A DNA stretch of 50,815 nucleotides, taken from Candidatus Nomurabacteria bacterium GW2011_GWC2_42_20 (GTDB taxonomy: Bacteria > Patescibacteriota > Minisyncoccia > Phycocordibacterales > UBA1550). Below the pieces are notes generated by a model that worked only from the letters and a program-made list of their open reading frames with translations, was not told the origin of the DNA and searched no databases. The translations under genes were made by a program, and so were the position numbers. The stretch is taken from assembly GCA_000998425.1 (NCBI GenBank), contig LCDG01000004.1, positions 1 through 50,815 on the forward strand, read 5' to 3'. Positions 2,961 to 12,063 of the stretch are shown piece by piece (position 1 is the stretch's first letter; each line of letters begins with the position of its first letter).

Positions 2961-3002
2961 AACAAACTAAAAAACGGGAGTAATCCCGTTTTTTAGTTTG
3001 TT
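2961..3002. terminator. Bidirectional terminator between secF and the 3014-3313 gene
   Basis: A 19-bp perfect stem (2961-2979 with 2984-3002) around a GTAA loop, with a GC core flanked by A and T runs on both sides. It serves the converging secF and the small reverse gene. Confidence 0.9.
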
Positions 3003-9369: not shown

Positions 9370-10689
9370 ATGAATGAAAATTTTTTAAAAAATATTCACT
9401 CCACTCATTTCATTGGTGTTGGTGGAATTGGTGTTTCAGCAGTAGCACGACTAATGCTTTTGCGTGGCGTAATTGTTTCAGGTTCAGATCGTGACCATTC
9501 GATTATTACCGAAAAACTTGAATCTGAAGGTGTAAAAATTTTTATTGGACATGATTCAAAGCACGTGCCTGATAGTTGTGACCTTGTTGTGTATTCTCCT
9601 GCAGTAGCAAATGATAACCCAGAACTCGTGATTGCGAGAGAGAGGGGGGTACAAACACTTTCATACCCTGAGGTGCTCGGGATGATATCGCGTGGCATGC
9701 GCACGATAGCGGTTGCTGGCACGCATGGCAAGACGACGACTACTGCGATGGTTGCGGGGGTTCTTGTGGGCGCCCACAAGAACCCCACTGTAATTGTAGG
9801 AAGCCTTCTTAGGTCCGGTACCAATTTTATTGCGGGGTCTAGTGATATTTTTATTGTTGAAGCGTGCGAATACAAGCGGTCTTTTTTACAATTGTCACCA
9901 GAAATTTTAGTGATCACCAATATAGACAATGACCATTTGGATTATTACGGTAGCATAGAAGGTGTGCAAAAAGCTTTTGCGGAGTTTGTAGAAAAAGTGC
10001 CAGCGAACGGTGTTATAGTCTGTGACCCAAATGACGCACTTGTTGCCATGGCTATCAAAAAGGCAGTTGCAAAAATCGTTGATTACACAAAAGAAACTCT
10101 CACAAAAGAACTTGCAGTTCCAGGAGAGCATAATAAAAAGAACGCCAAAGCAGCGCTAGCCGTTGCGCGTATTATTGGTGTTGACGGAGCTGAATCATGC
10201 ACGCTCCTCGCAGAGTTTCAGGGTACATGGCGTCGGATGGAGTACAAGGGTAAAATGGATAAAGGTGCTTTAGTGTACGACGACTACGCTCACCATCCTA
10301 CAGAAATAAAGGCAACACTCCAAGGTTTTCGTGCGGAATACCCCGATGCTCGAATTCGTGTCATATTTCAGCCGCACCTATACTCGCGTACAAAACTTTT
10401 GTTAGATGACTTTGCTCAGAGTTTTACAGATGCCGACGAGGTGATAGTTGCTCCAATTTATGCAGCACGCGAAGAAAATGATCCTACTATTTCCGCAGAG
10501 ATTCTTGCGCAGCGCATTGTCGATGAGCAAAAAGTTCCTGAGCTTCGCGTGTGTGCAATGCTTGATTTTGAGACCATTGAAAAGTATCTCCGCAAAACCG
10601 AAACTGCGAATGATGTGGTGGTCACTATGGGAGCAGGGGATGTTTTTAAGGTAGGAGAATCTGTACTAGTTTATAAAGAAGGAATATAA
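9370..10689 (+). CDS. murC: UDP-N-acetylmuramate--L-alanine ligase (MurC)
   Basis: A 439-aa Mur ligase that adds L-alanine to UDP-MurNAc, the first peptide step. It has the MurC nucleotide motif HFIGVGGIGVSAVARL (residues 13-28), the ATP loop AGTHGKTTTTAMVAGVL (about 116-132), EACEYKRSFLQLSPEILVITN, and DDYAHHPTEIKATL, a MurC hallmark. Length is within the family range. It lies 11 bases after the nucleotidyltransferase, most likely one transcript. No SD precedes the ATG. murE, murF and ddl are not in the window. Confidence 0.95.
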   Translation: MNENFLKNIHSTHFIGVGGIGVSAVARLMLLRGVIVSGSDRDHSIITEKLESEGVKIFIGHDSKHVPDSCDLVVYSPAVANDNPELVIARERGVQTLSYPEVLGMISRGMRTIAVAGTHGKTTTTAMVAGVLVGAHKNPTVIVGSLLRSGTNFIAGSSDIFIVEACEYKRSFLQLSPEILVITNIDNDHLDYYGSIEGVQKAFAEFVEKVPANGVIVCDPNDALVAMAIKKAVAKIVDYTKETLTKELAVPGEHNKKNAKAALAVARIIGVDGAESCTLLAEFQGTWRRMEYKGKMDKGALVYDDYAHHPTEIKATLQGFRAEYPDARIRVIFQPHLYSRTKLLLDDFAQSFTDADEVIVAPIYAAREENDPTISAEILAQRIVDEQKVPELRVCAMLDFETIEKYLRKTETANDVVVTMGAGDVFKVGESVLVYKEGI

Positions 10690-10756
10690 GAACAATACAA
10701 CTTGTTCCCATGCGGCCTCTGCCTCAAGGTCTTTGCCTCTTTAAGTTTGTATGATG

Positions 10757-10808
10757 TCTTAGTGACTGTGTATATGGTACTATAGTACCATATACACAGT
10801 CACTAAGA
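10757..10808. repeat. 52-bp perfect palindrome upstream of the PaaX/Cas2-like gene
   Basis: Every base of 10757-10782 pairs with 10783-10808; the centre is GGTACTATAGTACC with no loop. It ends three bases before the ATG at 10812. The core TGACTG-x-GTATA-xx-GTACTA recurs in the palindrome at 11387-11434 with symmetric changes. Confidence 0.95.
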
Positions 10809-10811
10809 AAC

Positions 10812-11360
10812 ATGGGAAAATTAACACGAGATGAAAGAAGGGAAGTAATACTCAAAATTCTTTTGGGTGTTGGTTTTTTAACAACAGCAATCGTTGCTCC
10901 TAATGCAGTGCGAGTTTTCAAATATTTTATTCCAATGGACAGGAGAGATCGATGGAATATTAAACAATCGTTTGTAAGGCTTGAGAAAAATGGATTAATA
11001 AAAAAGAAAATAACAAATGGTGAAGAATATTATTCACTAACTCTTTTGGGGAGTAAGCGCGCAAAAAAATACAAGCTTGATTCAATGAAGATTGAGGCAC
11101 AGAAAAAGTGGGACGGAATGTGGCGCTTGGTAATGTTTGATATCCCAGAAGATAAAAAGATTGCACGTAGGGGGGTTAACCTCGTCCTCAAAAAGCTTGG
11201 GTGTGTTCAGTATCAAAAATCAGTTTTCATTACTCCTTTTCCATGTGAAAAAGAAATTGATTTTGTCGGGGAGTGTTTTGATGCGCGCAAATATATTCGT
11301 GTGATTATTGCACGTGATGTCGAAGGAGTTGCTCAAATTAGGAAAGTATTTAATGTATAA
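10812..11360 (+). CDS. PaaX/Cas2-like protein with N-terminal winged helix
   Basis: A 182-aa two-domain protein. Residues about 5-90 look like a winged-helix DNA-binding domain (a helix with IKQSFVRLEKNGLIKKK, then a wing with EEYYSLTLLG). Residues about 98-182 resemble the PaaX C-terminal/Cas2 ferredoxin-like fold: WDGMWRLVMFDIPEDKK with the Asp of the Cas2 active strand, LKKLGCVQYQKSVFI, then a final strand region. Such proteins are often labelled Cas2 in CPR genomes, but no cas1 or repeat array is present here. The gene sits alone between two related perfect palindromes, which suggests either autoregulation at palindromic sites or a small mobile unit. The function is unproven. Confidence 0.7.
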   Translation: MGKLTRDERREVILKILLGVGFLTTAIVAPNAVRVFKYFIPMDRRDRWNIKQSFVRLEKNGLIKKKITNGEEYYSLTLLGSKRAKKYKLDSMKIEAQKKWDGMWRLVMFDIPEDKKIARRGVNLVLKKLGCVQYQKSVFITPFPCEKEIDFVGECFDARKYIRVIIARDVEGVAQIRKVFNV

Positions 11361-11386
11361 AGCTCCGCGCTGCCTTTTTGCTTCAT

Positions 11387-11434
11387 CAACTGACTGCGTA
11401 TACAGTACTATAGTACTGTATACGCAGTCAGTTG
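11387..11434. repeat. 48-bp perfect palindrome downstream of the PaaX/Cas2-like gene
   Basis: 11387-11410 pairs fully with 11411-11434, no loop. The central GTACTATAGTAC and the outer TGACTG/CAGTCA are shared with the palindrome at 10757-10808. The three positions per half that differ are changed on both sides, so symmetry is preserved. It starts 27 bases after the stop codon. Confidence 0.95.
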
Positions 11435-11565
11435 CTATTGCTAGCTTGTTTTGGCTTAGAGTTAGTGCAAGAAAGGCTTCTGTGCTAAAATCTATTTTTA
11501 GAAGTCTGTGACGCCGATGCCTGTTCTAAGTCGGTGATTTTTGTACAAATTGGAAGGAGTGGAAA

Positions 11566-12006
11566 ATGAGAAAATTTAGAATGTGGTATGGATTAGCAAT
11601 AATCTTGTTTACAAGGTATGCAAAAATGGCCGTACGAGAAGTCGGCGAATCAATGAAGTTATATGGGCGGAAGCTTGAGCGCCTTGGCGACGACGTCACT
11701 CCGCGTTGGAGTAGAGAACTTTTTTACAAATGTTATCTTGCTGACGCAGAGATACATATTGGTTCAAATGTTTTCACTGGTTGCATTGATTCCATTCATC
11801 AGGAACATTCAGGCAAGGATAGCTTGCTCGTGATTAAGTTCAAGGCTGGAACAAAAAGAGCTAACATCACACCAACGGCAGAGGTCTTAGAAGATTGTGA
11901 GTTTAAATTGATTGGCTATGGTCCGCCAGTGCTTATCAATGAGGATGGTTGCAATTGTGTGTGGACTGGTCATCGGAACGGTTATCTTGCAATATTCTTC
12001 CGCTAG
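11566..12006 (+). CDS. Hypothetical protein, SD-led single gene
   Basis: A 146-aa protein that I do not recognise. The N-terminal 20 residues are hydrophobic with basic ends (MRKFRMWYGLAIILFTRYAK) and could anchor it weakly. The rest looks like a mixed beta domain (AEIHIGSNVFTGCIDSIHQE, LLVIKFKAG, CEFKLIGYGPPVLI) with four cysteines. An AAGGAG sits about eight bases before the ATG, and the leader begins after an extended -10 (TGTGCTAAAAT, box near 11486-11491). A perfect terminator follows 2 bases after the stop. Promoter, SD and terminator put it in the same class as the genes at 5577-6764. Confidence 0.65.
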   Translation: MRKFRMWYGLAIILFTRYAKMAVREVGESMKLYGRKLERLGDDVTPRWSRELFYKCYLADAEIHIGSNVFTGCIDSIHQEHSGKDSLLVIKFKAGTKRANITPTAEVLEDCEFKLIGYGPPVLINEDGCNCVWTGHRNGYLAIFFR

Positions 12007-12008
12007 TT

Positions 12009-12040
12009 GTCGGGCGCTTCGCGCCCGACTTTCTTTTTTT
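12009..12040 (+). terminator. Terminator of the 11566 gene
   Basis: GTCGGGCGC (12009-12017) pairs with GCGCCCGAC (12021-12029), 3-base loop, then a T-rich run. Confidence 0.95.
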
Positions 12041-12063
12041 CTGTATTTTGCTAGTGTGTCCGT

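Follow-up and report, generated by a model that had tools for sequence, protein, structure and literature searches.

In RAYT/REP systems (REP-associated tyrosine transposases; PMC2817692), a short intergenic palindrome occurs on either side of a gene for a small protein. The locus described here has a comparable layout; cognate palindromes are likewise scattered on their own, often at the ends of genes, and differ between units along with the protein. The systems are set apart by the protein, which is of the Y1/HUH type in RAYTs and here consists of a winged helix and a Cas2-like domain with no Y1 domain; by copy number, with more than 100 dispersed REPs there, whereas the host assembly here (678,769 bp) has two gene-less (solo) palindromes of the window family; and by the palindromes themselves, which here are longer, often perfect and without the GT(A/G)G head (PMC2817692). 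The flanking pair here may also be direct or inverted. On the best reading, the unit would work by analogy with a REP/RAYT unit, but with an unrelated Cas2/PaaX-type protein.

A second comparison is with integron cassettes, in which a gene is joined to a folded palindromic site, attC, and whose insertion and loss would give unit and solo states; here, by contrast, the unit has no tyrosine recombinase, each gene has its own site family and the copies are scattered rather than arrayed. The genomes of Patescibacteria (CPR) are small, and to our knowledge the mobile elements reported from them are few. A search of open-access literature found no paper that describes the unit or connects PaaX with palindromes, with Cas2-like proteins or with mobile elements of CPR bacteria.

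The window unit and its host genome

The window is the whole 50,815-nucleotide stretch of DNA analysed, from a Yonathbacteria-like Patescibacterium whose entire assembly was scanned for palindromes and hairpins. An initial annotation, made from the window alone, had described a 182-residue gene bracketed by two perfect, loop-free palindromes of 52 and 48 bp, and the coordinates, open reading frame and symmetry were all verified. The features are as follows (positions of the whole stretch).

10690–12063, no strand: stretch between murC and rsmI without counterpart in congeners, holding the unit and an unrelated orphan ORF
10757–10808, no strand: left palindrome, 52 bp, perfect, loop-free; its inner family also occurs at other loci
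10763–10802: inner 40 bp of the left palindrome, TGACTGTGTATATGGTACTATAGTACCATATACACAGTCA
Outer arms of the left palindrome: TCTTAG/CTAAGA, copy-specific
10812–11360, forward strand: PaaX/Cas2-like ORF, 182 amino acids
11387–11434, no strand: right palindrome, 48 bp, perfect, loop-free; its inner family also occurs at other loci
11391–11430: inner 40 bp of the right palindrome, TGACTGCGTATACAGTACTATAGTACTGTATACGCAGTCA
Outer arms of the right palindrome: CAAC/GTTG

From palindrome to palindrome the unit measures 678 bp, and the start codon (start codons were picked by rule) lies 3 bp past the end of the left palindrome. The centre common to both palindromes, GTACTATAGTAC, has two occurrences in the window where 0.03 would be expected, and the two palindromes also have in common an inner 40 bp (TGACTG...CAGTCA), beyond which their outer arms differ. 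The inner parts differ at three positions per half, mirrored in the other half; the initial annotation had read this mirroring as symmetry kept by selection or copying, but it is unavoidable between two perfect palindromes. Their arm scores are 26 and 24, and none exceeded 11 in a null of one genome-sized Markov-1 sequence. As RNA hairpins, the left palindrome folds at −39.2 kcal/mol (z −11.7) and the right at −37.4 kcal/mol. The neighbouring orphan ORF (11566–12006, 146 residues) has no Pfam or NCBIfam match.

Elsewhere in the host, contig C8 carries a second unit, whose protein is 55% identical to that of the window and which has its own matching palindromes, ATTCCCAAATATGGTACTATCGTACC... 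and AATTCCCAAATATGGTACTATAGTACC.... The GTACTATAGTAC centre is found at five places in the assembly, against none for the reversed control pattern, and the two solo palindromes of the window family lie in the dedA–comEC and def–priA gaps.

These sites stand against a background of approximately 80 palindromes or hairpins with arms of at least 14 bp and loops of at most 4, where the Markov null reaches an arm score of 11; many are terminator-like, with A-rich and T-rich arms. Long palindromic terminators, perfect and in many cases loop-free, are unusually abundant in the host, the longest perfect palindrome being 68 bp (C1:62934–63001), and further terminator palindromes lie within the window at 17–56, 2961–3002 and 9757–9786. 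Because long perfect palindromes are common here as terminators, perfection alone is not evidence; what sets the window unit apart is that its two palindromes share a core and match each other across the gene, and that the arrangement recurs. Among 587 host ORFs, matching hairpins on both sides were found only for the two PaaX-like units and one other. The abundance of hairpins would suit a chance arrangement, in which an ordinary gene sits beside ordinary terminators of a palindrome-rich genome; that account is scarcely credible given the inner 40 bp that the two palindromes share with each other and with unlinked loci, the control genes without matching flanks and the recurrence across the phylum. 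Terminators as the whole story are ruled out by the common inner core, the matching flanks and the control genes.

The protein family and its flanking sites

The window protein is a winged helix joined to a Cas2 fold with an invariant Cas2-type aspartate. Its N-terminal half is winged-helix-like, and the Cas2-like domain spans approximately residues 98–172. It matches Pfam PaaX_M with an E-value of 1.7e-17 (63.7 bits, cut-off 24); the Cas2 model TIGR01573 scores 27.3 bits, above its cut-off of 24.5, and the Pfam Cas2 model 23.4 bits, below its cut-off of 23.8. Among 69 family members, PaaX_M matches all, the Cas2 model matches 36 and the Y1_Tnp domain (Pfam01797) matches none. Residues D110, R119, S137, P142, C145, G80 and W100 are invariant in 74 family proteins, with D110 and R119 falling on the Cas2 pattern FD...R...SVF; the aspartate suggests nuclease activity.

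The AlphaFold model (pLDDT 81) has a helical, winged first half and a beta-alpha-beta second half. Its best PDB folds by Foldseek are E. coli PaaX (8a39, E = 1.6e-3), 3kfw, which is an uncharacterized Mycobacterium tuberculosis protein, and Cas2 (5xvn), all with E-values above 0.001, although the two leading hits belong to the families expected. A PDB search with the window sequence gave one weak match (E = 0.43), and one with a profile from the family alignment gave none. Like E. coli PaaX, its best fold match, the protein has a winged helix followed by a PaaX_M Cas2-like domain. It differs from PaaX in length (182 residues against a model of 279 positions), in scoring 32 bits on the full-length PaaX equivalog model TIGR02277, far below the cut-off of 264.55, and in belonging to a family with an invariant aspartate, flanking palindromes and multiple copies. 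The flanks examined contained no paa genes. With CRISPR Cas2 it has in common a ferredoxin-like domain with the pattern FD...R...QxSVF, here fused to a winged helix. The initial annotation had reported no cas1 nearby, and this holds for the whole host assembly (92.6% complete), which yields no Cas1 match; a role in CRISPR adaptation was rejected on this ground.

The first homologues were found in Yonathbacteria, Azambacteria and Jorgensenbacteria. Ten of 16 congeners carry a total of 36 units (0–6 per genome), and profile searches detected the gene in 115 of the 297 genomes of the host's order, with a patchy distribution and up to approximately 10 copies per genome, and in 122 of 381 genomes of the phylum (0 to approximately 10), one genome per species and mostly metagenome-assembled. 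Some copies in the phylum set contain stop codons. The viral contigs searched contained a single distant relative, and viral cargo was rejected as an explanation. Site counts are lower bounds, some assemblies being broken at palindromes by N gaps bounded by inverted arms; because long palindromes break assemblies, elements of this kind are under-counted in metagenome-assembled genomes. At three loci of one congener (G055; L061, L091, L094), N runs are bounded by 22-bp inverted arms exactly at the expected palindrome positions.

Examination of the homologues' flanks, which had been suggested as a check on the window unit, showed that matching repeats, mostly palindromic, are retained around the gene in 107 of 122 non-redundant units. 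These exceed the 95th percentile of cross-unit flank pairs drawn from the same loci, where approximately six would be expected, and 95 of the 122 exceed the 99th. Two clear matching palindromes were present in 41 of the 70 units of the first set, with a median palindrome length of 40 bp and a unit length of approximately 710 bp. The cores vary among units, within a small common set (CTATAG, CGATAG, CGATCG, CGACCG and TCATGA, with CGGCCG in other families), and agree between the two sites within a unit. Core identity tracks the protein tree, requiring 5 changes where 10.1 would be expected (none of 300 shuffles gave so few; Mantel r = 0.41, 0 of 2,000).

Other families of units have imperfect sites. 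In several, the gene lies between exact direct repeats with an asymmetric interior (L248, 39/39; L253, 33/33; L247, 28/28), and further exact direct repeats occur at L277 (38/38) and at L262, where copies of approximately 42 bp are 737 bp apart. Asymmetric pairs are direct in 26 units and inverted in 14, so no single textbook end structure fits.

The host's two Y1 transposase-like genes, at C9:10457–10723 (L294) and C5:43225–43554 (L295), could act on the hairpins instead. On that account the palindromes would be hairpin elements moved by another enzyme, such as a resident Y1/HUH protein, and the PaaX-like gene a captured passenger; the layout does resemble that of RAYT genes between REPs (PMC2817692). 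We consider it very improbable, as the core co-diverges with the PaaX-like protein and matching repeats flank the gene in most of the 122 units, across distant lineages.

Orthologous loci with units, solo palindromes or neither

In three congeners (L046, L053, L065), murC is followed almost directly by rsmI and the stretch that holds the window unit is absent. In G298 (L047), the same gap contains what appears by eye to be a pair of small AbrB-like and RelE-like genes, so that the gap looks like an insertion hotspot. The def–priA solo of the host is also absent from several congeners.

All three states occur around yebC–ruvC. In this gap, G300 has the complete palindrome–gene–palindrome arrangement and G261 has a solo, which matches the left palindrome of G300 in its left flank and the right palindrome in its right flank; unrelated solos occupy the gap in G124 and G284. 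With three outgroups in the solo state, the shorter history for this gap would be that the gene inserted into a palindrome already present, though repeated loss may have occurred instead. At an adjacent site, a unit is present in G055, whereas G300, whose coding flanks are approximately 88% identical, lacks both unit and palindrome.

Filled and empty orthologous sites, together with several copies, are what is required of an insertion sequence or transposon, and both are found here, at flank identities of 73–88%. The comparison of loci with and without the unit that the initial annotation had called for therefore yields unit, solo and empty states, its closest pair being approximately 88% identical; no filled and empty pair above 95% identity was found in congeners or, for the 42-bp repeat of L262, in another genus. 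Exact direct palindromic repeats around some genes are candidate element ends, for which no close empty site was found. In ten pairs of units from different species the genes on both sides are the same, so some copies are old and vertically inherited.

In orthologous units beside ileS, different species have almost the same inner palindrome but outer arms that appear to differ; at this site G055 and G300 have the loop in opposite orientations. A target-site inverted duplication was considered as one possible origin of the arm symmetry; the non-coding flanks are unalignable at 73–88% identity, and the outer arms also seem to change at orthologous units. Template-switch correction of palindromes is another possible cause.

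Several congeners have solos of the window family, among them G299, which has three solos and no gene. Altogether, 7 of 12 solos lie between convergent genes (four of the seven occupy the same dedA–comEC gap in different species and are not fully independent), 5 between codirectional genes and none between divergent genes, against a host background of 44, 235 and 54. The dedA–comEC solo occurs in the host (G000), G261, G298 and G299 (L003, L057, L062, L058) and, in species with units of their own, belongs to the palindrome family of those units, as though each genome had re-targeted or homogenized the site. The initial annotation had counted palindromes without the gene at transcription ends as evidence against its proposal. 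Such palindromes do literally occur, yet they carry the unit's inner 40 bp, which suits dispersal or gene loss better than coincidence.

The distribution of the solos argues against operators and for positions at gene 3' ends. It bears on the proposal that the unit encodes an autoregulated PaaX-type repressor, with the palindromes as its operators, the solos as a small regulon and its spread due to the usual gain and loss of genes. Regulators of the PaaX family recognize palindromic operators, the fold here is nearest to E. coli PaaX, site and protein co-diverge and the left palindrome ends immediately (3 bp) before the start codon. This proposal is nevertheless unlikely: the downstream site is also present in most units, 7 of the 12 solos are between convergent genes, where no operator would be expected, solos occur without the gene in G299, orthologous sites alternate between unit, solo and empty states, and a pure repressor would have no need of a Cas2-type aspartate. 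The autoregulator with two operators put forward in the initial annotation may survive as a secondary role, at odds though it is with the convergent solos.

A position at gene 3' ends would also suit a unit acting at the RNA level, in which the hairpins would terminate the transcript or mark where it is processed and the Cas2-like protein, as an RNase or an RNA-binding factor, would act on the ends of its own mRNA. RNase activity has been described for some Cas2 proteins, and the hairpins are very stable. Palindrome mismatches on the gene-sense strand are G/T in 15 cases and A/C in 4 (p = 0.019), which hints weakly at an additional role of the hairpin in RNA or single-stranded form. With this bias drawn from 19 mismatches, and dispersal, gene-less solos and the exact direct repeats around some genes left unexplained, we regard the RNA-level account as improbable.

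A candidate palindrome-bounded mobile gene

The window unit is probably one copy of a phylum-wide family of palindrome-bounded minimal mobile genes in Patescibacteria. Sequence comparison establishes the architecture, its recurrence, the matching of sites, the co-divergence of site and protein and the unit, solo and empty states, and from it we infer that the unit is mobile. A mobile element is favoured because the units are multi-copy, patchily distributed and found in varied contexts, with solos, three locus states and conserved flanking repeats. Counting against it are the Foldseek E-values above 0.001, the vertical inheritance of some units, the occurrence of terminators that are also perfect palindromes and the copy-specific outer arms, which recognition of a fixed site leaves unexplained. 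The initial annotation had offered a mobile or REP-like element with its own nuclease as one possibility; copies, patchiness and locus states favour the first part, and for the nuclease the aspartate is suggestive.

The protein would be the enzyme of the element, binding and cutting its palindrome. Its fold and the co-divergence suggest that it binds the inner 30–40 bp as a symmetric dimer, with the winged helices on the palindrome arms and the Cas2-like dimer over the centre, where the invariant aspartate may support cutting or strand exchange at the core. Entry of the gene into a site, either at a pre-existing palindrome or as a whole unit, would leave the observed arrangement of one palindrome on each side; subsequent loss of the gene would leave a solo, consistent with G261. 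Solos may then persist at gene 3' ends, probably also serving as transcription-terminating hairpins. It is conceivable, and we propose it tentatively, that a Cas2-type dimer with winged helices acts alone as the recombinase or transposase, inserting its own gene at palindromes and able to leave again.

The unit appears to represent a type of mobile element, based on a Cas2-type protein, that has not been named before. If so, a phylum-wide, multi-copy element of approximately 700 bp would be among the commonest mobile elements of Patescibacteria, and a Cas2 fold would be linked to DNA mobility outside CRISPR. Were the protein a lone recombinase, mobile elements would gain a new class by enzyme, and the unit would be a separate, Cas1-free case of Cas2-fold DNA mobility. 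The co-divergence provides dozens of natural protein–palindrome pairs ready for binding and cleavage assays. Many family proteins are likely to be annotated simply as PaaX-like regulators or Cas2, which would hide the element.

Near the host's Y1 transposase-like gene on contig C9 are two similar hairpins (C9:10188–10216 and 10704–10740) with the inner sequence GTGAAGGTCYGACCTTCAC, possibly forming an ordinary RAYT/REP unit. The third host ORF with matching flanks (C1:83573–85192, in the region C1:83373–85450) encodes a membrane/spermidine-synthase-like protein of approximately 540 residues and sits between inverted copies of a segment of approximately 40 bp containing CCATTTTAAAGGAGC.
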